A stretch of 36,007 bases of DNA, from positions 1-36,007 of IMG/VR virus record IMGVR_UViG_3300032675_000074; one strand, 5' to 3'. A program made the translations under genes and the position numbers. Origin of the DNA: a virus. Position 1 is the first letter of the stretch, and every line of letters starts with the position of its first letter. Positions 1,439 to 32,991 of the stretch are shown in pieces. The notes under the pieces were generated by a model. That model made no database searches, was not told the DNA's origin, and was given only the letters and a program-made list of their open reading frames with translations.

Positions 1439-2335
1439 ATGGTCAAGAAACTCTCGGATGTTTTAAAAGGTAAGCTTGAAGGTGTTAAGAGTAGCACTGT
1501 TACTCCAGGATCACTCGGGACTAGACCTGGTGTAGATTATATGCCTAAGGCACCTTCCGAACAAGATTTTGTTGCAGCTCATACTTTTGAAAAGCATGCA
1601 GGTAGAGTTGGGAATGATGCAGATGTTTATAACGGCGGAAAAATTAAATATTCAATGGATACACCTCAGATGAAGAATTTTGGGCACAAAAAGGGTGATG
1701 ATGAAAAGGCTTATAATGAAGTAAAAAGCCCAACAAACACCGGCAAGGAAGTTGGTGAGACCATTATGAAGATCAAGAATATTACGCCTGGCCAGACAGT
1801 TAAAGAAGAAACGTCAAAGAAAACACTAAATGAAATTCTAACAAAATCAACACCTGCAGGTGAATGGATTAAGGATTTCATTGATTCTGATAATCCGAAA
1901 TTTGCTGGCAAATCTAAGGAAAGGCGTAAGCAAATGGCTTTAGCTGCTTACTATGCCAAACAGAGAAATGAAGAAGTAGAACAGATTGACATGGAAGAAG
2001 ATATAGCTGTCCCACTTTTAGGTGGTGATATTGCAAAAAATAAAACTGATGACACTCAGGATGAAATTGCAATGGTCAAAAGTGAATTAAAGGCTATTGC
2101 AAATAAAGCAATGCATATGCTTATGTCTCTTCCTACTGATATGCATATTGAACCATGGGTGCAAGCAAAGATTGCTATGGCTAAGGAAATTCTTTCAGGT
2201 GTTCATGACTATATGATTTATGGTCATGGCCAATCCGTAGAAAAAGAAGCAGATTCACAAATGGATATTACATCTTCGGGTTCAGTACCTCAAGATTTTC
2301 CAGGTATAACAGTTGATTATGGGAAAATTGTCTAA
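1439..2335 (+). CDS. Putative head core/structural protein with an ITPGQ motif shared with gp22
   Basis: 298 residues. A longer in-frame start exists at 1364, but it overlaps the gp67-like gene, so ATG 1439 just after that gene is preferred. Visible parts: a Gly/Pro-rich N-terminus; NITPGQ at residues 114-119; a helix NPKFAGKSKERRKQMALAAY (about 174-193), a motif seen in structural proteins of marine T4-like phages; an acidic linker; and a C-terminal helical unit containing WVQAKIAMAKEILSGVHDYM. It lies between gp67-like and the prohead protease, where T4 has gp68. NITPGQ occurs at the same residue numbers in gp22 (4750-5835), which suggests a core or scaffold link. Function is inference. Confidence 0.6.
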   Translation: MVKKLSDVLKGKLEGVKSSTVTPGSLGTRPGVDYMPKAPSEQDFVAAHTFEKHAGRVGNDADVYNGGKIKYSMDTPQMKNFGHKKGDDEKAYNEVKSPTNTGKEVGETIMKIKNITPGQTVKEETSKKTLNEILTKSTPAGEWIKDFIDSDNPKFAGKSKERRKQMALAAYYAKQRNEEVEQIDMEEDIAVPLLGGDIAKNKTDDTQDEIAMVKSELKAIANKAMHMLMSLPTDMHIEPWVQAKIAMAKEILSGVHDYMIYGHGQSVEKEADSQMDITSSGSVPQDFPGITVDYGKIV

Positions 2336-3996
2336 TGTCTACATATCCAGTAAGCACTAATAATTATACAATGAAAACGACTCGTCCAGAGTCGTTCCTC
2401 CTTCCTTCAAGAGTACGAGATGTTGTGGGTAGAATGAAAATTTCTATGCCACAGAATATCTATGAAGCAGACTTTGAATATGGTTCACAACCAATGCGGT
2501 GGGAAAACTATACGGTCAACACTGCTTCATCAGGAAGTCTTGCAAGTATTGTTCAGCTTCCTGGTATGGGCGGTGTTCGTATGCTTGTTGGTAACAATGC
2601 AGGTGATTTAACAGTCCGTCAGTCACGTCCATATCATCGTTATCAGCCTGGCAAAACAATGTATATGGCCACAGCAATTAATTTCGGTGCACCAACTTCA
2701 AATAATTACCAACGTGTTGGATTCTTTGATGATTCAAACGGTATATTTTTTGAACAAGGTGCTGTTACAGCCAATAATCCATCAGGCATGTATTGTGTCA
2801 TTCGTTCGGATGCAGGTTCAGTCAATCTTGCTACAGGTGTGCCAATATCATCACTTCCTGTAGATACAAAGATTTCTTATGAAAATTGGTATGGTGATCC
2901 AGTAGGTTCACTTATCGACTGGACAAAGATTCAAATGCTTTGGATGGAATATGCTTGGTATGGTGCCGGTACAATTCGTTGGGGTATTTTGCTCAATGGT
3001 GAGCCTTATGTTCTTCATGAAGTTGGTGCAGGCAATGGTAACTACACTGGTAATCCACAGCAATTCCCATGGTCAAGAACAGGTAATCTACCCGTAAGAT
3101 ATGAACAAAGAAATATTGGCGCAACAACAGCTAATAGTGCTTTGGTTCATTTCGGTGTATCAGTCATGGTAGAAAATCGCCAGGATGCACAACGTGGTTT
3201 CACATATGGCTATGGTATGTCTGGCGCCGCACCAAGACGAAATGTTCCTGCAGCTAATACACGTTTCCCCGTTACATCTTTCCAGATGCTTTCAATGGGC
3301 AGAACAGAAGCTAATAATACAACTACCAATAATTACTTTTCTGTATCGACTCTTGGTACTCAGGCAAATATTGTAGCATCTCCTGCACCAAATACAACAT
3401 TCATTCAGGTTGCTGGTACACCATGGACGGCAAATCAGTTTGTTGGTCGTGCTATCACATTCTATGGTCTTGGTGCTGGTAATACAAATATTACTGCTCG
3501 TATTGCTAACAACACAGCAAACACCGTTTATTTTTACGACCTAATTTCCAATACAGCACCGATTGCAAATACACCCAATACTGCAACAACATATGGTATT
3601 GGTCTAATCAATCGCGGTCAGATTCTTCCACAATCTCTAATCATTTCTTCTGATGCTACTTGCTTCGTAGAATTGATTGTATCGACCGCAACAAATCCTG
3701 TTGGATTGACAGGTGCTTCATTTGTGCCTATGAATACACTTGGTTCATTTAACTCTCTTTCATCTAGAGATATTTCTGCTACAGCATTGACACCTAATAC
3801 TGGTGAAGTTATCTATTCATTTACCGGTCCAGCTGGTGGTTCTGGTCTCCAGACATTTGATTTGACTAACGTGTTTGCTCTTTATAATAACATCCGAGGG
3901 AATCAGCCAGATATTCTAACTGTTGCTGTTTCTACACCTTCTGGTGTTTCTGCTAACGTGGGTGCTACACTTATTGCACAGGAAGCTATGTCTTAA
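2335..3996 (+). CDS. Virion structural protein, marine T4-like family
   Basis: 553 residues, overlapping the previous stop by one base (TAATG). The N-terminal half holds RPESFLLPSRVRDVVGRMKI, VRQSRPYHRYQPGKTMYMAT and RVGFFDDSNGIFFEQ, a conserved pattern in structural proteins of cyanophage- and pelagiphage-type T4-like viruses. The rest is rich in Asn, Thr, Gly and Ala and looks like beta-sandwich or fibre sequence, with no membrane segment or signal peptide. It sits in the head block, so a capsid-surface or fibre-like role is plausible, but the exact location in the particle cannot be read from the sequence. Confidence 0.6.
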   Translation: MSTYPVSTNNYTMKTTRPESFLLPSRVRDVVGRMKISMPQNIYEADFEYGSQPMRWENYTVNTASSGSLASIVQLPGMGGVRMLVGNNAGDLTVRQSRPYHRYQPGKTMYMATAINFGAPTSNNYQRVGFFDDSNGIFFEQGAVTANNPSGMYCVIRSDAGSVNLATGVPISSLPVDTKISYENWYGDPVGSLIDWTKIQMLWMEYAWYGAGTIRWGILLNGEPYVLHEVGAGNGNYTGNPQQFPWSRTGNLPVRYEQRNIGATTANSALVHFGVSVMVENRQDAQRGFTYGYGMSGAAPRRNVPAANTRFPVTSFQMLSMGRTEANNTTTNNYFSVSTLGTQANIVASPAPNTTFIQVAGTPWTANQFVGRAITFYGLGAGNTNITARIANNTANTVYFYDLISNTAPIANTPNTATTYGIGLINRGQILPQSLIISSDATCFVELIVSTATNPVGLTGASFVPMNTLGSFNSLSSRDISATALTPNTGEVIYSFTGPAGGSGLQTFDLTNVFALYNNIRGNQPDILTVAVSTPSGVSANVGATLIAQEAMS

Positions 3997-7394: not shown

Positions 7395-7994
7395 ATGGAA
7401 AAATATGGGTTTGTTTATATTTGGTTCGATCGTAAACATAAAAGATATTATGTTGGATGTCACTGGGGAACTATTGATGATGGGTATATTTGTTCATCTA
7501 GATGGATGCGAAATTCATATAATCGTAGAAAAGAAGACTTTAAAAGACGTATTATAAAAACAAATTTAGATAGAGAAGAAATGTATACTGAAGAGCAACG
7601 TTATCTTGATATGCAAAAACCCGAAGAAAAAAAATTACGTTATTATAATATACAAACAAAAAATGGTAACCTTTGGCACCAATACCCAGAATCCGTAAAA
7701 ACTATTGGACAAAAAATATCATTTTCTAAAACAGGTAAAAGTGTTCCAGCACCACCAAGCCGAGGACCAGCGATTTCTGCTGCTAAGAAAGGTAAACCAT
7801 TAACTGAAGAACATAAGGCAGCCCTTCGTAAAATAAAGAAAAAGCCTCACACAGAAGAGTGGAAGCAACAGAACTCAGAAAAATTCAAGCAGCTCTGGTT
7901 AGACCCAGAGTTTAAAGCCAAACAGTCAGAAGCTAGAAAAGCTGCTTGGATTAAAAGACGACAAAAGATAAATAACAATGAACTTGCTCAATGA
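7395..7994 (+). CDS. GIY-YIG homing endonuclease, free-standing
   Basis: 199 residues from ATG 7395, with GGAGG at 7385-7389. The N-terminus has the GIY-YIG signature in the forms GFVYIW (5-10) and RYYVGCHWG (17-25), as in T4 Seg-type enzymes. The C-terminal half has lysine-rich repeats of NUMOD3 type (KISFSKTGKS, AISAAKKGKPLTEEHKAALR) that contact DNA, and ends strongly basic. It is a single gene bracketed by two terminators (7352-7379 and 8033-8058), between gene 23 and tail-like genes, which fits a selfish insertion rather than a part of the head module. Its DNA target, probably near gene 23, is inference. Confidence 0.85.
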   Translation: MEKYGFVYIWFDRKHKRYYVGCHWGTIDDGYICSSRWMRNSYNRRKEDFKRRIIKTNLDREEMYTEEQRYLDMQKPEEKKLRYYNIQTKNGNLWHQYPESVKTIGQKISFSKTGKSVPAPPSRGPAISAAKKGKPLTEEHKAALRKIKKKPHTEEWKQQNSEKFKQLWLDPEFKAKQSEARKAAWIKRRQKINNNELAQ

Positions 7995-11787: not shown

Positions 11788-11957
11788 AAAATTCACATCT
11801 TGTCCCACAAGCTGTCATTGATGCAGTAATCGGTATGTCAGATGAAAATAACAATTCTACTATTAAATCAAATTTTGAGGATCGTGTGAAAGCCATCAGG
11901 GAATTCTGTGATACTGCTTTAAGAAAGAACTTGGAACAAAAAAAGTCACGTCGGTAA
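11784..11957 (+). CDS. Small conserved protein between genes 55 and 47
   Basis: 57 residues, overlapping gene 55 by ATGA and gene 47 by TAATG, so it is tightly fitted in the operon and almost certainly translated. It starts SHLVPQAVIDAVIGM and continues with a charged helix (FEDRVKAIREFCDTALRKNL) ending in basic residues KKSRR. Marine T4-like phages have a comparable small helical gene before 47. No function is known to me. Confidence 0.7.
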   Translation: MKNSHLVPQAVIDAVIGMSDENNNSTIKSNFEDRVKAIREFCDTALRKNLEQKKSRR

Positions 11958-13009
11958 TGCGGATCGGATTAATTACGGATACTCATTGGGGTGTCCGTTC
12001 AGATAATATAGCATTTCTTGATAACACCAAGAAATTTTTGGATAATATCTTTTTTCCTTATCTAGATAAGCATCAGATTGATACTGTAATACATCTTGGT
12101 GATCTTCTGGATCGTAGGAAGTATACAAATTCTCATACTGCATATCGAATGAGAGAAGATTATATTGATCCCATTCGAGCAAGGAAACTTGATTATCATC
12201 AAATTTTAGGAAACCATGATTGTTTCTTTAAAAATACTAACAGAGTAAATGCAGTTAGAGAATTCTGTGGTGATTATCAAGTATATGATAGTGCCCAAGA
12301 GGTAATTTTTGATGACACAAAAATACTTTTGGTGCCATGGATATGTCAAGAAAATAGGAATGAAACATATGATGCAATCAATAAAACACAAGCTTCAATC
12401 TGTCTTGGGCATCTCGAACTTGAAGGTTTTCAAATGTATCGAGATAGTGTTGCTACTCATGGCGATGATCGTAAAATGTTTGACAAGTTTGATCTTACTT
12501 GCTCTGGTCATTATCATCACCGTTCCAGTGATGGTTCTATATTTTATCTTGGTTCTCATGCTCAATTTACTTGGTCCGATTATGGAGATTCTAGAGGATT
12601 TCATGTATTGGATACGGAAAAAAGGGAGTTGACATTTATAGAGAATCCATATAAAATGTTCGAGAAGGTAGTATATGATGACACAGATACTACTCTTGCT
12701 AATCTTTTGGAAATAGATTTTGAACTATATAAAAATACTATTTGCAAAGTTATAGTAAAAAATAAAAATAACCCATATTGGTTTGATATGTTCTGTGAAC
12801 GCATAGAAAAGACAGGTGTGACTGACATGCAAATTGTCGATGATCATCTTAATATGAGCACCATAGAAGATTCGGAAATTACTACTTCTGCTGAAAATAC
12901 ATGGGATATTTTTAAAAACTATATTAGACAAATCAACACCACTTCTATTTCACCAGAGAAGCTCGAAAAGAAAATGGAAGATCTTTATATCAAGGCATCA
13001 AATCTCTAA
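11957..13009 (+). CDS. 47: Recombination endonuclease subunit gp47 (Mre11-like)
   Basis: 350 residues (T4: 339). This is the metallophosphoesterase nuclease of the gp46/gp47 complex, which resects DNA ends for recombination-dependent replication. Metal-binding motifs appear in order: DTHWG (residues 8-12), HLGDLLDRR, LGNHD, a GHLELEG block and SGHYHHR. The C-terminal third is the capping and gp46-binding part. It overlaps the preceding small gene (TAATG) and gene 46 by one base each. Confidence 0.96.
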   Translation: MRIGLITDTHWGVRSDNIAFLDNTKKFLDNIFFPYLDKHQIDTVIHLGDLLDRRKYTNSHTAYRMREDYIDPIRARKLDYHQILGNHDCFFKNTNRVNAVREFCGDYQVYDSAQEVIFDDTKILLVPWICQENRNETYDAINKTQASICLGHLELEGFQMYRDSVATHGDDRKMFDKFDLTCSGHYHHRSSDGSIFYLGSHAQFTWSDYGDSRGFHVLDTEKRELTFIENPYKMFEKVVYDDTDTTLANLLEIDFELYKNTICKVIVKNKNNPYWFDMFCERIEKTGVTDMQIVDDHLNMSTIEDSEITTSAENTWDIFKNYIRQINTTSISPEKLEKKMEDLYIKASNL

Positions 13010-14724
13010 TGTCTATACTATTTCGACGGATTCGATGGAAGAATTTTCTGTCAACCGGAAACCAATTTACAGAATTAGAACTTGACAGAAATGGAACGAC
13101 ACTTATCATTGGTTCAAATGGGTCTGGGAAATCAACATTTCTTGATGCTCTTACATTTGCACTATTTGGCAAACCTTTCCGGAATATTAACAAACCTCAA
13201 CTTATAAATTCTATTATTAAAAAGGATGCTGTAGTTGAGGTTGAATTTGATTCTGGTGCTGATGCTTATAAGATTATTCGTGGCTTAAAACCGGTAATCT
13301 TTGAAGTATATAAAAATGATGTTCTAGTCAATCAATCTTCTGATGTTCGTGACTATCAGGAAATTGTTGAGAAGAATATTCTCAAGATTAACTACAAATC
13401 ATTCTGTCAGGTAGTGGTTTTAGGTTCGGCTTCATTCATTCCATTTATGCAATTACCTGCTGCACAACGTAGATCCATCATTGAAGATTTACTTGATCTT
13501 CAGATATTCACTACCATGAATATTATATTAAAAGAACAAATTCAAGAAAATCTTGAAAATATTTGTGAAGCAGATCAGAAAGTCATTTTGGTCAAAGAAA
13601 AAATAAAGATAGTTCAGGAACATCTTCGTGAACAATCTTCTAGTAATGAAAAGAAAATTGAACAACTGGTTGAAAAAAACTCTAATCTTGAAAAAGCCAA
13701 ACTTCTTGCAAGTGAAGTAATTGAAAAGCATAGAATGGAAATTGAAAAGAATGAGGAACTAATCAAGGACAAAGCATCTCTGGAAAAGAAACTAAAAGCC
13801 TTAAATGTATACAAGAATCAAATTGACACAAAACTTGCTATCATTGAAAGTGAAATCAAGTTTCTAGAAAATAATGAAAGTTGTCCAACTTGTAAGCAAT
13901 CTATCGAGAAACACTTTCGTTGTGATTCCATTGAAGATAAAACTTCAAAACTTTCTGAACTGAAAGAAGGTCTAGAGAAACTATCGGAAACACAAGCTTC
14001 GATTGAAACAAGACTTTTGGAAATACAAGAAATTTCAAAGACTATAGATTCTTTGAACAGTTTGATTTCCATGCAAATCCTTGAGATAAAGCATGCTGAT
14101 ATGCAAATATCTCAAAATAAAAAGGATATAGTATCAATTAAGGATAGCATCAAAACAGAATCAAATGATAGAATAGTTGATTATGAAAAGCAATTCATGG
14201 AAGCCTCAACAGTCTATAACGAATATCAAGAAGAAAAGAAGGTACTTGCAACAGCAGGAATTCTTCTAAAAGATTCTGGTATTAAAACTACTATCATAAA
14301 TCAGTATGTTCCTATTATCAATAAGTTGATTACAAAATATCTTTCAATTATGGATTTCCATTGTCAATTTGAAATTAACAATCAATTTGAGGAAACCATC
14401 AAATCTCGTCATCGGGATGAATTTAGTTATGCATCTTTCTCGGAAGGTGAGAAACAGAGAATCAATCTTGCTATTCTCTTTACTTGGAGAGCTATAGCAA
14501 AGATGAGGAATTCTCTTTCGACAAATCTTCTCATCCTAGATGAAATATTTGATTCCTCGATTGATGCCGCTGGTGTAGATCAACTTATGTCTATCATTCA
14601 AAGTCAAGGAACTGACACAAACTTATATGTTATATCACACAAAGAACAAATGCTAGATAGATTCAACACTGTTATCAAATTTTCAAAGAAAAGTAATTTT
14701 AGTCATATGGAGGATGCAGCATGA
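13009..14724 (+). CDS. 46: Recombination ATPase subunit gp46 (Rad50-like)
   Basis: 571 residues (T4: 560). SMC/Rad50-type ATPase that partners gp47. Walker A GSNGSGKS is at 35-42, long coiled coils flank a zinc hook CPTC at 292-295, the ABC signature reads FSEGEKQRINLAI near 480, and Walker B is LLILDEIFDSS near 516, followed by an H-loop (VISHKEQ). All parts needed for ATP-driven clamping are intact. Gene order 47-46 with overlap is standard. Confidence 0.97.
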   Translation: MSILFRRIRWKNFLSTGNQFTELELDRNGTTLIIGSNGSGKSTFLDALTFALFGKPFRNINKPQLINSIIKKDAVVEVEFDSGADAYKIIRGLKPVIFEVYKNDVLVNQSSDVRDYQEIVEKNILKINYKSFCQVVVLGSASFIPFMQLPAAQRRSIIEDLLDLQIFTTMNIILKEQIQENLENICEADQKVILVKEKIKIVQEHLREQSSSNEKKIEQLVEKNSNLEKAKLLASEVIEKHRMEIEKNEELIKDKASLEKKLKALNVYKNQIDTKLAIIESEIKFLENNESCPTCKQSIEKHFRCDSIEDKTSKLSELKEGLEKLSETQASIETRLLEIQEISKTIDSLNSLISMQILEIKHADMQISQNKKDIVSIKDSIKTESNDRIVDYEKQFMEASTVYNEYQEEKKVLATAGILLKDSGIKTTIINQYVPIINKLITKYLSIMDFHCQFEINNQFEETIKSRHRDEFSYASFSEGEKQRINLAILFTWRAIAKMRNSLSTNLLILDEIFDSSIDAAGVDQLMSIIQSQGTDTNLYVISHKEQMLDRFNTVIKFSKKSNFSHMEDAA

Positions 14725-15215
14725 AATTAGTTGATTATAAAGATCCAATTCTTAAAGAAAAAAGTAAAGTATTTGACTTTAACGATCCACCTTTTGATCC
14801 GATTGAATATTCACAAAAACTCATAAGATTTGTGTATGATAACAATATCATTTGTGTTGCTGGTATTCAGGTAGGAATTCCCTATAGAGTTTTTGCAATG
14901 AGAGGTGCACCTGAAAATTATGTTATGTATAATCCAAGAATTGTGATGCCTTCTGCAGAAACAATAGTTCTTGAGGAAACTTCAGCTACATATCCTGATT
15001 TTATTTGCAAAGTTTCCAGACCACAGCATGTAAAGGTAAGATTTGCTACACCAAATGGAGAAATAAGAACTGAAACATTTACAGGTCTAAGTGCAAGAGT
15101 ATTTCAACATAATATGGATTTTTTAGAAGGAGAAAGATTTTGGAAAACATGCAGCAAGCTCCAATTCGATATGGCCAAGAAAAAAAGTTCCCTGGAGTTT
15201 TTGACGTTCAGGTAA
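14721..15215 (+). CDS. Peptide deformylase homologue with degenerate metal site
   Basis: 164 residues, overlapping gene 46 by 4 bp (ATGA). Deformylases remove the formyl group from new proteins; marine T4-like phages often carry one. The fold's landmarks are present: DPILKEKSK near the start, AGIQVG (47-52; normally G-x-G-L-A-A-x-Q), a strand RVFAMRG, and ARVFQHNMDFLEG (125-137). But three of the four catalytic positions differ: in place of EGCLS it has ETSAT-type residues (Ser88 where Cys binds metal), and HExxDH has become His130-Asn131 with Phe134 for the second His. It is therefore probably catalytically dead as a metalloenzyme or has taken another role. The C-terminus overlaps the next gene by 67 bp. 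Confidence 0.85.
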   Translation: MKLVDYKDPILKEKSKVFDFNDPPFDPIEYSQKLIRFVYDNNIICVAGIQVGIPYRVFAMRGAPENYVMYNPRIVMPSAETIVLEETSATYPDFICKVSRPQHVKVRFATPNGEIRTETFTGLSARVFQHNMDFLEGERFWKTCSKLQFDMAKKKSSLEFLTFR

Positions 15216-15400
15216 GACTTTTCAGATATGATGATCTTGAAGGTCAGAAGTTGGTATCTGAAACTTATATTTTAGAAACTTATTATCCAATTTGGCGTAA
15301 AAGAATGGCCAATAAAATGGGAAAAGATTCTAAACTTATTACAGAAGAAAATTGCATTGAAGATTTCTGTGCGCTTCATTATGCGTGGGAAATTAGTTGA
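15149..15400 (+). CDS. Small conserved T4-like protein overlapping the deformylase homologue
   Basis: 83 residues from ATG 15149 (a TTG start at 15140 is possible). Its first 67 bp overlap the end of the deformylase homologue in another frame. The sequence FPGVFDVQVRLFRYDDLEGQ, then ETYYPIWRKRMANKM, then EENCIEDFCALHYAWE resembles a small protein seen near recombination genes in marine T4-like phages. It has an alpha/beta feel and no membrane segment. Function unknown. The stop codon coincides with the -35 of the next promoter. Confidence 0.65.
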   Translation: MQQAPIRYGQEKKFPGVFDVQVRLFRYDDLEGQKLVSETYILETYYPIWRKRMANKMGKDSKLITEENCIEDFCALHYAWEIS

Positions 15401-15455: not shown

Positions 15456-15827
15456 ATGGAAATTAAAACTAAATACAGTATCGGCAATTCGTTGTGGTTT
15501 CCCCGTGTTTTCAACGATATGAATGTAGATAAAATTGAAGTAAATGGTGAGATTTATACAAAATCGACGCTAGTTCTTTGTGCTTCAGCATTTTTAATGG
15601 ATATTGTTTCAATATCCATTGTAGTTGAAACGGATGGTGAAATTTCCACAGAATATTGTTTTCAAGAATACAACGAATCCTCAAAAGGTTTTCACAGATA
15701 TTTTATAGATGAGGAACATCTTAAAACTGCTTTTGATTCTGAAGATGGTGCTTTAGAATTTGCACAAAATTGGAAGACCAATCAAAATCGTGAATACTAT
15801 GGTTTCAATGAGCTTGATTATCTATAA
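15456..15827 (+). CDS. Hypothetical phage protein
   Basis: 123 residues. It begins MEIKTKYSIGNSLWF, a start common in small T4-like phage proteins with a beta-barrel-like N-terminus, then alternates hydrophobic strands (LMDIVSISIVVETDGEIS) and an acidic, aromatic C-terminal half (NREYYGFNELDYL). First gene after the promoter at 15397; no strong ribosome site is visible. Function unknown. Confidence 0.6.
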   Translation: MEIKTKYSIGNSLWFPRVFNDMNVDKIEVNGEIYTKSTLVLCASAFLMDIVSISIVVETDGEISTEYCFQEYNESSKGFHRYFIDEEHLKTAFDSEDGALEFAQNWKTNQNREYYGFNELDYL

Positions 15828-16369
15828 TGAATATTTTTATGCTTGATTCAAATCCTGTTCAAGCAGCACGATGGATGGTCGATAAACACGTTGTAAAAAT
15901 GATCCTGGAATCAGCACAACTTTTATCAACAGCACATCGTCTGCTTGACGGGAAGGAATCCCAAGCATCAATCAATGGTCGGAAACGGAAATTGTGGTCT
16001 TTGTTTGATGAACGAGAAACACAAATGTATAAGGCAACACATGTAAATCATCCATGTGCTATTTGGTGTCGTGAATCTGTTGAAAATTATTCATGGCTTG
16101 TGGAACATTTCTTTGCTCTGCTTGATGAATATACCTACAGGTATAACAAGAAGCACAAATGTTCTGATATGGGCTTTATTCTTCAATCTCCTCCGTTAAA
16201 TCTAAAAGAATGGAATATTACCCCAGCACCATCTTGTATGGCCAAGGAATACATAGTTTCAGATAATGTAATAGAAAACTATCGGAACTATTATAAAGTT
16301 GGTAAGAAACATATTCATAGTTGGAAAAATCGTGAAACACCAGAATGGATTATGAACAATGAAATTTGA
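15827..16369 (+). CDS. Conserved T4-like phage protein of unknown function
   Basis: 180 residues, overlapping the previous stop by one base. It carries a widely conserved phage pattern: MNIFMLDSNPVQAARWMVDK, HVVKMILESAQLLSTAHR, THVNHPCAIWCRES, a Trp/Tyr-rich middle, and a C-terminal YRNYYKVGKKHIHSWKNRETP. The early D..K...KM..E..Q arrangement has some likeness to pyrimidine-dimer glycosylase-type small proteins, but the match is too loose for a call. Conserved His, Arg and Trp residues suggest an enzyme or nucleic-acid-binding protein. Confidence 0.65.
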   Translation: MNIFMLDSNPVQAARWMVDKHVVKMILESAQLLSTAHRLLDGKESQASINGRKRKLWSLFDERETQMYKATHVNHPCAIWCRESVENYSWLVEHFFALLDEYTYRYNKKHKCSDMGFILQSPPLNLKEWNITPAPSCMAKEYIVSDNVIENYRNYYKVGKKHIHSWKNRETPEWIMNNEI

Positions 16370-29034: not shown

Positions 29035-29110
29035 GCTCTTATGGTGAAATAGGATATCACACGGGTCTTCTAAACCCAGATTCTAGGTTCGAGTCCTAGT
29101 GAGAGCGCCA
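29035..29110 (+). tRNA. tRNA-Arg(TCT)
   Basis: 76 nt. Acceptor GCTCTTA pairs with TGAGAGC; anticodon loop CTTCTAA between GGGT and ACCC gives anticodon TCT (reads AGA); T-arm CTAGG-TTCGAGT-CCTAG; encoded CCA ends at 29110. It is intact and lies inside the broken tRNA-Arg. Confidence 0.92.
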
Positions 29111-29116
29111 ACCTAT

Positions 29117-29161
29117 CTTCTAAGCTGTGGGCCGGTGGTTCGAATCCCCTACGGGATACCA
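29117..29161 (+). pseudogene. 3' half of a broken tRNA-Arg(TCT)
   Basis: Anticodon loop CTTCTAA (29117-29123, TCT), stem GCTGT, variable loop, a T-arm with GG-TTCGAAT-CC core and an end ACGGGAT-A-CCA (29161). The T-stem and the standard acceptor pairing with the 5' half have mismatches. GTGTCCT of the 5' half pairs fully (two G-T wobbles) with GGGATAC at 29153-29159, two bases out of register. So a decayed gene is likelier than a working split tRNA. Confidence 0.68.
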
Positions 29162-29187
29162 ACTTAAACTTATGTGGAGAATACAAT

Positions 29188-29409
29188 ATGAATAAGCCTG
29201 CTACTGATCGTGTGTTTGCTCTTTTGGAACGTGGACAATCCTTGACGGCCGAACAAATTTCAAACCGTTTTAATGTAAGTAACCCATATCATGTTGTATA
29301 TTCATTGCGAAATCGTGGTCTAAATATTATTACTACACCTCATACTATTCGTGGTAAGACGGTATCTAAGTATAGTTATATTGCGCCACGATCTAGGAAG
29401 AAGATGTAA
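29188..29409 (+). CDS. Small winged-helix DNA-binding protein
   Basis: 73 residues, inside the tRNA cluster, with TGGAGA upstream. Helix-turn-helix segment SLTAEQISNRFNVSNPYHVV (18-37) followed by a recognition-like helix YSLRNRGLNI and a basic wing (TIRGKTVSKYSYIAPRSR). The pattern fits the small winged-helix proteins that occur in many phages. It is the only clear small DNA-binding regulator in the window and therefore a candidate reader of the repeat array at 27208-27592, but nothing in the sequence proves that. Confidence 0.75.
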   Translation: MNKPATDRVFALLERGQSLTAEQISNRFNVSNPYHVVYSLRNRGLNIITTPHTIRGKTVSKYSYIAPRSRKKM

Positions 29410-29418
29410 AACAAGTTT

Positions 29419-29493
29419 TCGGGTGTAGCTCAGTGGTAGAGCAATCGGCTGTTAACCGATCGGTCGTAAGTTCGAATCTTACCACCCGAGCCA
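29419..29493 (+). tRNA. tRNA-Asn(GTT)
   Basis: 75 nt. Acceptor TCGGGTG/CACCCGA, anticodon stem ATCGG/CCGAT around CTGTTAA (GTT), T-arm GTAAG-TTCGAAT-CTTAC, discriminator G and encoded CCA. Confidence 0.95.
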
Positions 29494-29497
29494 GTTT

Positions 29498-29650
29498 GCC
29501 GGATTAGTAACAAGCGGTTCCTAGGTCTGCTTGGGTCTGTACCGGTAGAGGATCCCGACACCTCTATAAAAACGCGGAGGTTTGCCCCTCAAGGGGAATA
29601 ACCGGTCACTCCGGTTCGAGCTGGGCGATCTCGTGAAACTGCCCTAGCCA
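29498..29650 (+). ncRNA. Candidate structured RNA between tRNA-Asn and tRNA-Thr
   Basis: A 153-nt stretch that starts like tRNA-Thr (GCCGGATTAG) and ends in CCTAGCCA. A 19-bp direct repeat (AGCCAGTTTGCCGGATTAG) at 29489-29507 and 29646-29664 bounds it. Stems visible: CTAGG/CCTAG (29521-29525 with 29643-29647) as a closing helix; TAGAGG/CCTCTA (29536-29541, 29551-29556); CCCC-TCAA-GGGG (29585-29596); ACCGG-TCACT-CCGGT (29601-29615); GGGCG/TGCCC (29623-29627, 29640-29644; alternative to the closing helix). It is GC-rich, has no good reading frame, and recalls the stable RNA C and RNA D of the T4 tRNA cluster. It could instead be a decayed tandem copy. Confidence 0.5.
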
Positions 29651-29654
29651 GTTT

Positions 29655-29729
29655 GCCGGATTAGCACAGTGGTAGTGCAGCGGTTTTGTAAACCGAAGGT
29701 CGGGAGTTCAAATCTCTCATCCGGCACCA
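29655..29729 (+). tRNA. tRNA-Thr(TGT)
   Basis: 75 nt. Acceptor GCCGGAT/ATCCGGC, D-stem GCAC/GTGC, anticodon loop TTTGTAA (TGT), T-arm GGGAG-TTCAAAT-CTCTC, discriminator A and CCA. One G-A mismatch at the top of the anticodon stem. Confidence 0.93.
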
Positions 29730-29736
29730 AATTGTT

Positions 29737-29823
29737 GGGGATGCGGCACAGTTGGAGAGGTGCGGCAGACTGTAAATCTGTTCCTTAATTGGTGAGTTAG
29801 TTCGAATCTGACGATCCCCACCA
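29737..29823 (+). tRNA. tRNA-Tyr(GTA)
   Basis: 87 nt, class II with a long variable arm. GGGGAT pairs with ATCCCC, anticodon loop CTGTAAA (GTA), T-loop TTCGAAT, discriminator A with encoded CCA. Confidence 0.93.
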
Positions 29824-29884
29824 AATAAGTTTGATCTAGATACGATTGGGAAGTCTCTGGTCGTCGCGATGCTAGACAACATTC

Positions 29885-29909
29885 AGGCCAAGTCGTGCGG
29901 CCTAGTTTT
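29885..29909 (+). other. Hairpin in the spacer before tRNA-Ser
   Basis: AGGCC (29885-29889) pairs with GGCCT (29899-29903), followed by AGTTTTA, a weak terminator-like shape. The 94-bp spacer 29824-29917 holds no gene that I can see; it may be a processing or attenuation site. Confidence 0.35.
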
Positions 29910-29917
29910 ATAATAAA

Positions 29918-30009
29918 GGAAGTGTGACCGAGAGGCCTATGGTAGCGGTTTGCTAAACCGCCGAACTCTACTAGGGGTTCCGAGGGTTCGAATCCCTCCT
30001 CTTCCGCCA
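29918..30009 (+). tRNA. tRNA-Ser(GCT)
   Basis: 92 nt, class II with long variable arm. GGAAGTG/CTCTTCC acceptor with one mismatch, anticodon stem GCGGT/ACCGC around TTGCTAA (GCT), T-arm GAGGG-TTCGAAT-CCCTC, GCCA end. Confidence 0.95.
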
Positions 30010-30014
30010 ATTAT

Positions 30015-30091
30015 CAGGGAATAGCTCAATCTGGCAGAGCATTGCGTTTGGGACGCAAAGGTTGCAAGTTCAATTCTTGCTTCCCTGACCA
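30015..30091 (+). tRNA. tRNA-Pro(TGG)
   Basis: 77 nt. CAGGGAA/TTCCCTG, anticodon stem TTGCG/CGCAA around TTTGGGA (TGG), T-arm GCAAG-TTCAATT-CTTGC, discriminator A and CCA. Last tRNA of the cluster. Confidence 0.95.
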
Positions 30092-30106
30092 TTCGGGATA
30101 TATTCA

Positions 30107-32335: not shown

Positions 32336-32812
32336 ATGACATATCTAACTACATTCCCATCCTTTTGGGATAAGAACTTTGATAAGTTTTTCATTGGTTC
32401 TGATCATCTTGCCAAGACTGTCAAGCATATGACTGATACTATGGCAAACACTTCAATCGCAAATTTTCCTCCATATAATATTGTCAAACTAGAAGAAAAC
32501 AAGTATGTAATTGAAATTGCAGTTGCTGGTTTTGGCAAGCAGGATCTTGAGATTACTCTTGAAGATAAGAAGCTCATTATTAAGGGTTCGGTGAAGGCAG
32601 ATACACAGCAAAATTATCTATTTAAAGGTATTGCTGATCGAGCATTCACGCGTGAATTTACTCTATATGATAATGTTGAACTTCAGAATGCTGAACTTTT
32701 CAACGGTATGTTAAAGCTCTGGCTGGAGCATATTATTCCAGATTCCAAGAAGCCACGGAAGGTTGAAATTTCAGAGACAGGCACTGAAAAGCACAAGAAG
32801 CTTTCGGTATAA
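32336..32812 (+). CDS. Small heat-shock protein Hsp20
   Basis: 158 residues, with TAGGAG upstream. The alpha-crystallin domain is clear: PPYNIVKLEENKYVIEIAVA, GFGKQDLEITLEDKKLIIKG, and ADRAFTREFTLYDNVELQNA, then a C-terminal Lys-rich extension. T4-like marine phages often carry it, with a presumed chaperone role in capsid folding or host stress. It is the first gene of the hsp20-DUF1127-small ORF operon. Confidence 0.92.
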   Translation: MTYLTTFPSFWDKNFDKFFIGSDHLAKTVKHMTDTMANTSIANFPPYNIVKLEENKYVIEIAVAGFGKQDLEITLEDKKLIIKGSVKADTQQNYLFKGIADRAFTREFTLYDNVELQNAELFNGMLKLWLEHIIPDSKKPRKVEISETGTEKHKKLSV

Positions 32813-32991
32813 TGATAATGGGTATAATCAACCACCTTAAAAAGTGGGTCAAATCCGTTCGTGTCTATAATGACACATTCCGTGATTTAAGTATTATGTC
32901 ATGTCGAGAACTCAACGATCTTGGTATTCATAAGAGTGACATTTATTTCCATGCTCAGAGAGCATATCAAGAAAGTATGAAAAATGCTTAA
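32812..32991 (+). CDS. DUF1127-type small arginine/aromatic protein
   Basis: 59 residues (ATG 32812, overlapping the hsp20 stop; ATG 32818 is an alternative). The segment RVYNDTFRDLSIMSCRELND followed by LGIHKSDIYFHAQRAYQE matches the DUF1127 plan (R-x-x-x-x-x-L-x-x-L-s-x-R-E-L-x-D-i-G-i-x-r-s-D-i). These short proteins are abundant in alphaproteobacteria and influence RNA turnover and phosphate or carbon regulation. A phage copy is unusual and could alter host RNA metabolism; that is inference. Confidence 0.75.
   Translation: MIMGIINHLKKWVKSVRVYNDTFRDLSIMSCRELNDLGIHKSDIYFHAQRAYQESMKNA

Follow-up and report, generated by a model that had tools for sequence, protein, structure and literature searches.

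The gene that begins within the end of gene 46 in the viral DNA examined here encodes a homologue of peptide deformylase (PDF) in which, by alignment, substitutions affect all three catalytic motifs, and it is very probably a pseudoenzyme maintained by selection. Judged from its residues, the protein would not carry out ordinary metal-dependent deformylation, a conclusion that we infer with high confidence. Few auxiliary genes are as abundant in marine viruses as PDF, whose phage product is interpreted as an enzyme that accelerates the maturation of N-termini. A large and repeatedly evolved set of proteins with a dead metal site makes the deformylase annotation unsafe and points to a function independent of catalysis, which is directly testable with the matched active and inactive relatives available at one gene position.

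Gene position, active site and fold

The window, meaning the whole stretch of 36,007 nucleotides that was analysed (IMG/VR record IMGVR_UViG_3300032675_000074), contains the features collected in Table 1. The product of the PDF-like gene matches PF01327 with an E-value of 6e-27 and 94.6 bits against a Pfam cut-off of 22.8, its residues 2-147 aligning with positions 3-153 of the 156 in the profile, and it also matches phrog_2890 in PHROGs (E 4e-29) and solved PDFs in a sequence search of the PDB. The GGAGG upstream of its start is, from its position, the likely ribosome-binding site.

Table 1. Coordinates of the PDF homologue, its parts and neighbours in the window, and of two damaged relatives in sequenced phages
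Feature	Sequence	Coordinates	Strand	Evidence or remark
PDF-fold protein, 164 aa, PF01327; very probable pseudoenzyme	window	14721-15215	+	ORF call (exact bounds, ATG start), Pfam, PHROGs, structure
GGAGG, likely ribosome-binding site of the PDF homologue	window	14709-14713	+	sequence and position; 7 nt upstream of ATG, inside the end of gene 46
Gene 46, SMC-like recombination nuclease subunit	window	13009-14724	+	Pfam SMC_N, E 1e-14
Gene 47, Metallophos, recombination nuclease	window	11957-13009	+	Pfam, E 2e-11
Motif I, residues 43-50, IICVAGIQ (canonical GxGxAAxQ)	window	14847-14870	+	alignment; Gly43 to Ile, Gly45 to Cys, Gln50 kept
Motif II, residues 86-90, ETSAT (canonical EGCLS)	window	14976-14990	+	alignment; metal ligand Cys to Ser88, Glu86 kept
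Motif III, residues 130-134, HNMDF (canonical HEXXH)	window	15108-15122	+	alignment; His130 kept, Glu to Asn131, His to Phe134
C-terminal tail, residues 141-164, net charge +4, predicted helix 146-155	window	15141-15212	+	alignment, AlphaFold2
Damaged PDF, annotated peptide deformylase	RHph_I1_18 (L009)	2881-3462		without complete metal site
Damaged PDF, annotated peptide deformylase	vB_OspM_OC (L014)	1914-2408		without complete metal site

Alignment with the E. coli PDF (reference sequence from NC_000913) and with canonical phage PDFs places Ser88 at the position of E. coli Cys90, Asn131 at Glu133 and Phe134 at His136, with His132 and Gln50 preserved as His130 and Gln50. Motif I, which reads GIGLAATQ in E. 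coli versus IICVAGIQ here, keeps only the Gln and one Ala of GxGxAAxQ; the complete Cys/His/His ligand set, the Glu of HEXXH and the canonical motif I of an active PDF (EC 3.5.1.88) are all missing from the homologue. The preliminary description of this DNA had recognised a PDF homologue without its metal site, citing Ser88, Asn131 and Phe134 with His130 remaining. The family matches, the solved PDFs and the alignments confirm that reading and every residue named, but the list was incomplete, the motif I glycines being lost too (Ile43, Cys45). In Arabidopsis PDF1B, replacement of the first motif I glycine (G41M, G41Q) lowers kcat/Km about 1000-fold (PMC3101196), and since Ile43 stands at the G41 position, the change in motif I matters on its own. 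Sequencing error at these codons, which the same description had named as a possible undoing of its view, is excluded because a contig of another IMG/VR record (L001) matches without a single difference across 6,492 bp and the same kinds of change occur in relatives that share 55-63% identity.

An AlphaFold2 model built with 83 relatives reached a mean pLDDT of 92.5 and a pTM of 0.85, with a helix at residues 146-155. In structural matching (VIA-align), the best 50 PDB entries listed were all PDFs, led by 1lme with a Z of 24.2; other matches are the S-SSM7 phage PDF 3uwa (Z 23.7), E. coli 4az4 (Z 23.4) and Vp16 5mtc (Z 22.9). On the model, the PDF fold is intact, in support of the earlier statement that the remainder of the fold is kept.

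Nearby genes for gene 47, UvsW, UvsY, a tail tube protein, head protease and major head protein, together with those for the sliding clamp, both clamp loader subunits and a RegA-type repressor, mark the source as a T4-like phage. The major head protein best matches that of Stenotrophomonas phage DLP_6 (65.7%), followed by those of Sinorhizobium T4-like phages, and its gene is adjoined by a homing endonuclease-like reading frame at 7395-7994 (+; phrog_314, E 1e-18). The product of 15827-16369 (+) has a pyrimidine dimer DNA glycosylase domain (PF03013, E 7e-8), and its gene lies directly behind the PDF gene in relatives such as L002. Six clustered tRNA genes (Arg, Asn, Thr, Tyr, Ser, Pro) occupy 29035-30091 (+), and minus-strand reading frames in that cluster, for example 29937-30092, are antisense artefacts. 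The DUF1127 protein at 32812-32991 (+; PF06568, E 6e-6) belongs to a small family common in host proteobacteria.

Relatives, recurrent loss and selection

Scans of viral contigs with PDF profiles returned more than 546 relatives, of which 80 per scan were retained, and a scan with gene 46 added the best 80 further loci, chosen by likeness to the gene 46 of the window. After removal of near-copies, 125 non-redundant rows, mostly from aquatic T4-like phages, were compared: 78 are canonical (Gln, Glu, Cys, His, Glu, His) and 47 are damaged, so that the survey of relatives that had been suggested as a check finds the same kinds of change in many of them. Behind gene 46 in the loci anchored on it, 30 distinct PDFs are damaged and 25 intact, a share that reflects selection of loci by gene 46 likeness and is not a global rate. 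The damaged sets at positions 88, 130, 131 and 134 include Ser-His-Cys-Phe, Ser-Gln-Ser-Phe, Ser-Gln-Met-Asn, Ser-Gln-Gln-Phe, Cys-His-Gln-Tyr, Ser-His-Gln-Tyr and others. The second His has mostly become Phe or Tyr, in separate lineages, and Gln50 and Glu86 are present in every damaged lineage but that of vB_OspM_OC. A genome scan for relatives also returned two contigs from Bacteroidetes/Bacteroidales metagenome-assembled genomes (MAGs), one of them with a damaged PDF. This 132-kb contig (L225, CAIWHI010000271.1), from a MAG labelled Bacteroidetes, reads GAIYLTAIQ (the clade type), EETSL and HCMDY, and may be either a misbinned phage contig or a hint of the host.

A quick tree with long branches, built without the six site columns, shows 10 changes between intact and damaged states, at least 4 of them forced on well-supported branches. 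When only losses are allowed and the tree is rooted on distant intact phage PDFs, 11 are counted, falling to 9 with branches below 80 support collapsed and to 4 with those below 95. The number of losses is about 10-11, a soft figure, and a single loss would be incompatible with the supported branches unless function had been regained. The homologue of the window belongs to a damaged clade that comprises 26 rows, has modest outer support (80) and is adjoined by intact rows. In this tree of PDFs from phages and viral contigs, damaged rows branch from among phage PDFs whose motifs are intact, which speaks for an origin separate from the cellular type 3 PDFs.

Damaged copies appear to be under purifying selection similar to that on intact ones. 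Among close pairs (dS < 0.7), the median pairwise dN/dS (Nei-Gojobori) is 0.084 for the 25 damaged and 0.085 for the 13 intact pairs; among wider pairs it is 0.176 versus 0.151. The pairs share sequences, and the values are descriptive only. Among the 31 non-ligand sites conserved to at least 95% in 63 intact copies, 24 are still conserved to at least 85% in the damaged clade, and the site entropies of the two groups correlate (Spearman 0.67). New residues have become fixed in the clade of 26: Ser88 (26/26), Phe134 (24/26) and Cys45 (22/26), as well as Arg116, Glu118 and Thr119 (25/26 each). Together with the recurrent loss, these results give good support to the earlier proposal that the gene is selected for something other than standard deformylation.

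In a search of 18 records with PF01327, most of them fragments, one PDF was found in 17 and none in 1; the set includes a 141-kb record with a damaged copy and the complete genomes of RHph_I1_18 and vB_OspM_OC. With at most one PDF per examined record, the damaged copy probably replaces the enzyme, and the idea of a spare copy beside an active phage PDF was rejected for these records.

Candidate roles of the retained fold

The preferred account is that an ancestral active phage PDF in a DNA-metabolism operon would have lost its metal site and catalytic Glu, the aromatic side chain at 134 probably occupying the space vacated by the metal, and that the fold and remaining surface would have stayed under selection. 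Because the fold, most of the conserved surface and the basic tail are common to active and damaged members, we propose that the protein acts without catalysis, at the ribosome exit or on nascent chains. Active and inactive forms would, with moderate confidence, share docking by the ribosomal tunnel exit on the uL22 side, where the docked protein would contact the nascent N-terminus, using its basic C-terminal helix; by occupying this site in an infected cell, it would displace the host PDF and other N-terminal processing factors or modulate them. That the kept function lies at the ribosome exit or on nascent chains and works through this helix is, in our view, as likely to be true as false.

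The tail is the counterpart, by alignment, of the ribosome-docking helix region of the E. coli PDF, which is reported to dock on uL22 and 23S rRNA via L149, K150, R153, K157, K160 and R163, with Lys150 and Lys157 reported to contact uL22 (PMC12690207). Mean net tail charge is +5.7 in the clade of 26, +5.6 in other damaged copies and +5.3 in intact ones. His148 and Lys155, aligned with E. coli Lys150 and Lys157, are each found in 24 of the 26 clade members, and across the family residue 147 is aliphatic or aromatic, His148, Lys155 and Lys/Arg158 are retained, and E. coli Arg153 is mostly unmatched (Gln151). Binding of nascent chains or blocking of the host enzyme, the two roles suggested in the preliminary description, would both be plausible, and the conserved basic helix fits a ribosome-side role. 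The homologue of the window is itself, on its deviant tail, a weak witness for docking: its tail reads WKTCSKLQFDMAKKKSSLEFLTFR, has Gln148, Phe149 and Asp150 in place of the His148 pattern, and keeps only Leu147 and Lys155 of the docking-region residues. A reading frame of 86 aa at 15140-15400 (+), with a TTG start and AAGGAG at 15127-15132, overprints the last 76 nt of the gene, the tail codons, in another frame, and this overprinting may explain the changed tail; apart from the identical contig L001, the frame has no relatives in the collections searched. Neither a bS20 nor a bS21 gene turned up in 16 related records, which give no sign of a wider ribosome-modifying set, and a link with phage-encoded ribosomal proteins was accordingly set aside for these records.

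Docking alone leaves the commonness of active relatives unexplained. A wider generalisation, which is possible but doubtful, would be that phages repeatedly turn PDF into a non-catalytic ribosome-exit protein controlling N-terminal processing or cotranslational traffic during infection, and that so many aquatic T4-like phages have PDF as a core gene because of what the protein does apart from deformylation.

Gene order bears on another reading, that the PDF fold has come to serve the gp46/gp47 recombination nuclease as an accessory subunit or regulator and is co-translated with gp46. The tight packing behind gene 46 from which the preliminary description had argued is correct at 14721, where the two genes overlap by 4 nt and the PDF gene has a GGAGG of its own, and the ATGA overlap recurs in L002, RHph_I1_18 and vB_OspM_OC, the last two being sequenced phages with damaged copies. 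The PDF gene abuts gene 46 in 32 of 43 damaged rows and in 24 of 69 intact ones (Fisher p 8e-5), so such packing is not universal; the association is not significant in independent well-supported pairs (only 4, median p 0.5), the damaged copies L031, L098, L162 and L172 lie 1-1.5 kb from gene 46, and adjacency changes 23 times on the tree. Recruitment to the nuclease is on this evidence unlikely. We give a similarly low chance to the idea that the protein inhibits the host PDF, either by binding it directly or by occupying its place on the ribosome, which would leave N-formyl-Met on proteins during infection. Retention of fold and tail with apparent loss of catalysis would suit such an inhibitor, as does the lack of a second, active phage PDF in the 18 records, but 78 of the 125 rows keep the full active site and would act oppositely, and the proposal overlaps with the ribosome-exit account.

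Residual or altered chemistry, through another metal arrangement such as Cys45, His130 and Cys131 or as a Ser/His hydrolase, is improbable. It could draw on the pairing of Cys45 with Cys131 in 12 damaged relatives, 10 of which also have His130 (CSHCF 9, CSHCI 1), on the retention of Gln50 and Glu86 outside vB_OspM_OC, and on T. brucei type 3 PDFs with changed motifs that are reported active (PMC12690207). The set is, however, unstable within the clade of 26, eight rows having Cys45, Ser88, Gln130, Ser131 and Phe134, and a general alternative metal site of this kind is not maintained across it; other lineages have Gly45, Ser88, Gln130, Met131 and Asn134, the homologue of the window lacks Cys131, and Ile43 with Cys45 should also impede substrate closure. 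A functionless relic on its way to loss, as recurrent loss and a variable residue 131 (Asn, Cys, Ser, Gln, Met) might suggest, is very improbable, since dN/dS of about 0.08 in close damaged pairs equals that of intact ones, reading frames are full-length throughout, and the Ser88 and Phe134 replacements are conserved across a deep clade, so that neutral decay is refuted by purifying selection, conserved sites and newly fixed residues.

Comparison with known deformylases

Type 3 PDFs are those with substitutions in the conserved catalytic motifs (Grzela 2017, PMC5591237), and inactive or weakly active members are described from S. aureus, S. pneumoniae, archaea and trypanosomatids (PMC5591237; MBE 2025, PMC12690207). 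By alignment, the homologue of the window has such substitutions, and the damaged phage PDFs resemble type 3 in combining them with a PDF fold. They differ in that type 3 proteins are cellular and usually occur beside an active PDF in the same genome, whereas the damaged phage protein is the sole PDF found in its record and has evolved several times from phage PDFs.

In pelagimyophages, PDF is listed as a core gene that forms part of the DNA metabolism operon (PMC7029224). The canonical PDFs of T4-like phages (Stenotrophomonas DLP_6, Caulobacter Cr30, Methylophilales Melnitz and Pelagibacter Mosig) are homologous to the protein described here, with 26-41% identity over the aligned part, and those of Cr30, Melnitz and Mosig also lie in the gene 46/47 region, but all retain Gln, Glu, Cys, His, Glu and His. 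The PDFs of cyanophage S-SSM7 and vibriophage Vp16 have the same fold as that modelled for the homologue; unlike it, they have intact motifs and reported deformylase activity (PMC5591237), and their C-terminal tail is short or absent, whereas the family of the homologue carries a basic tail some 18-20 residues long. The catalytic motifs of phage PDFs were reported as conserved, which prompted the suggestion that all are active, and the failure of two marine viral PDFs to complement was attributed to short C-termini (PMC5591237).

The closest parallels in sequenced phages are RHph_I1_18 (Rhizobium) and vB_OspM_OC (Ochrobactrum), which likewise have a damaged site, a single PDF and a PDF start that overlaps the gene 46 stop. 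Their proteins are distant, carry other substitutions (EISPS/QQLIE in RHph_I1_18, DVCPL/QRAIE in vB_OspM_OC) and are annotated plainly as peptide deformylase; the RHph_I1_18 protein found no relative when used as a query against viral contigs. Their damage probably represents separate losses, their position in the tree being unsure. No report of a phage PDF group without a metal site was found in the open-access literature; inactive type 3 PDFs are known from cells.
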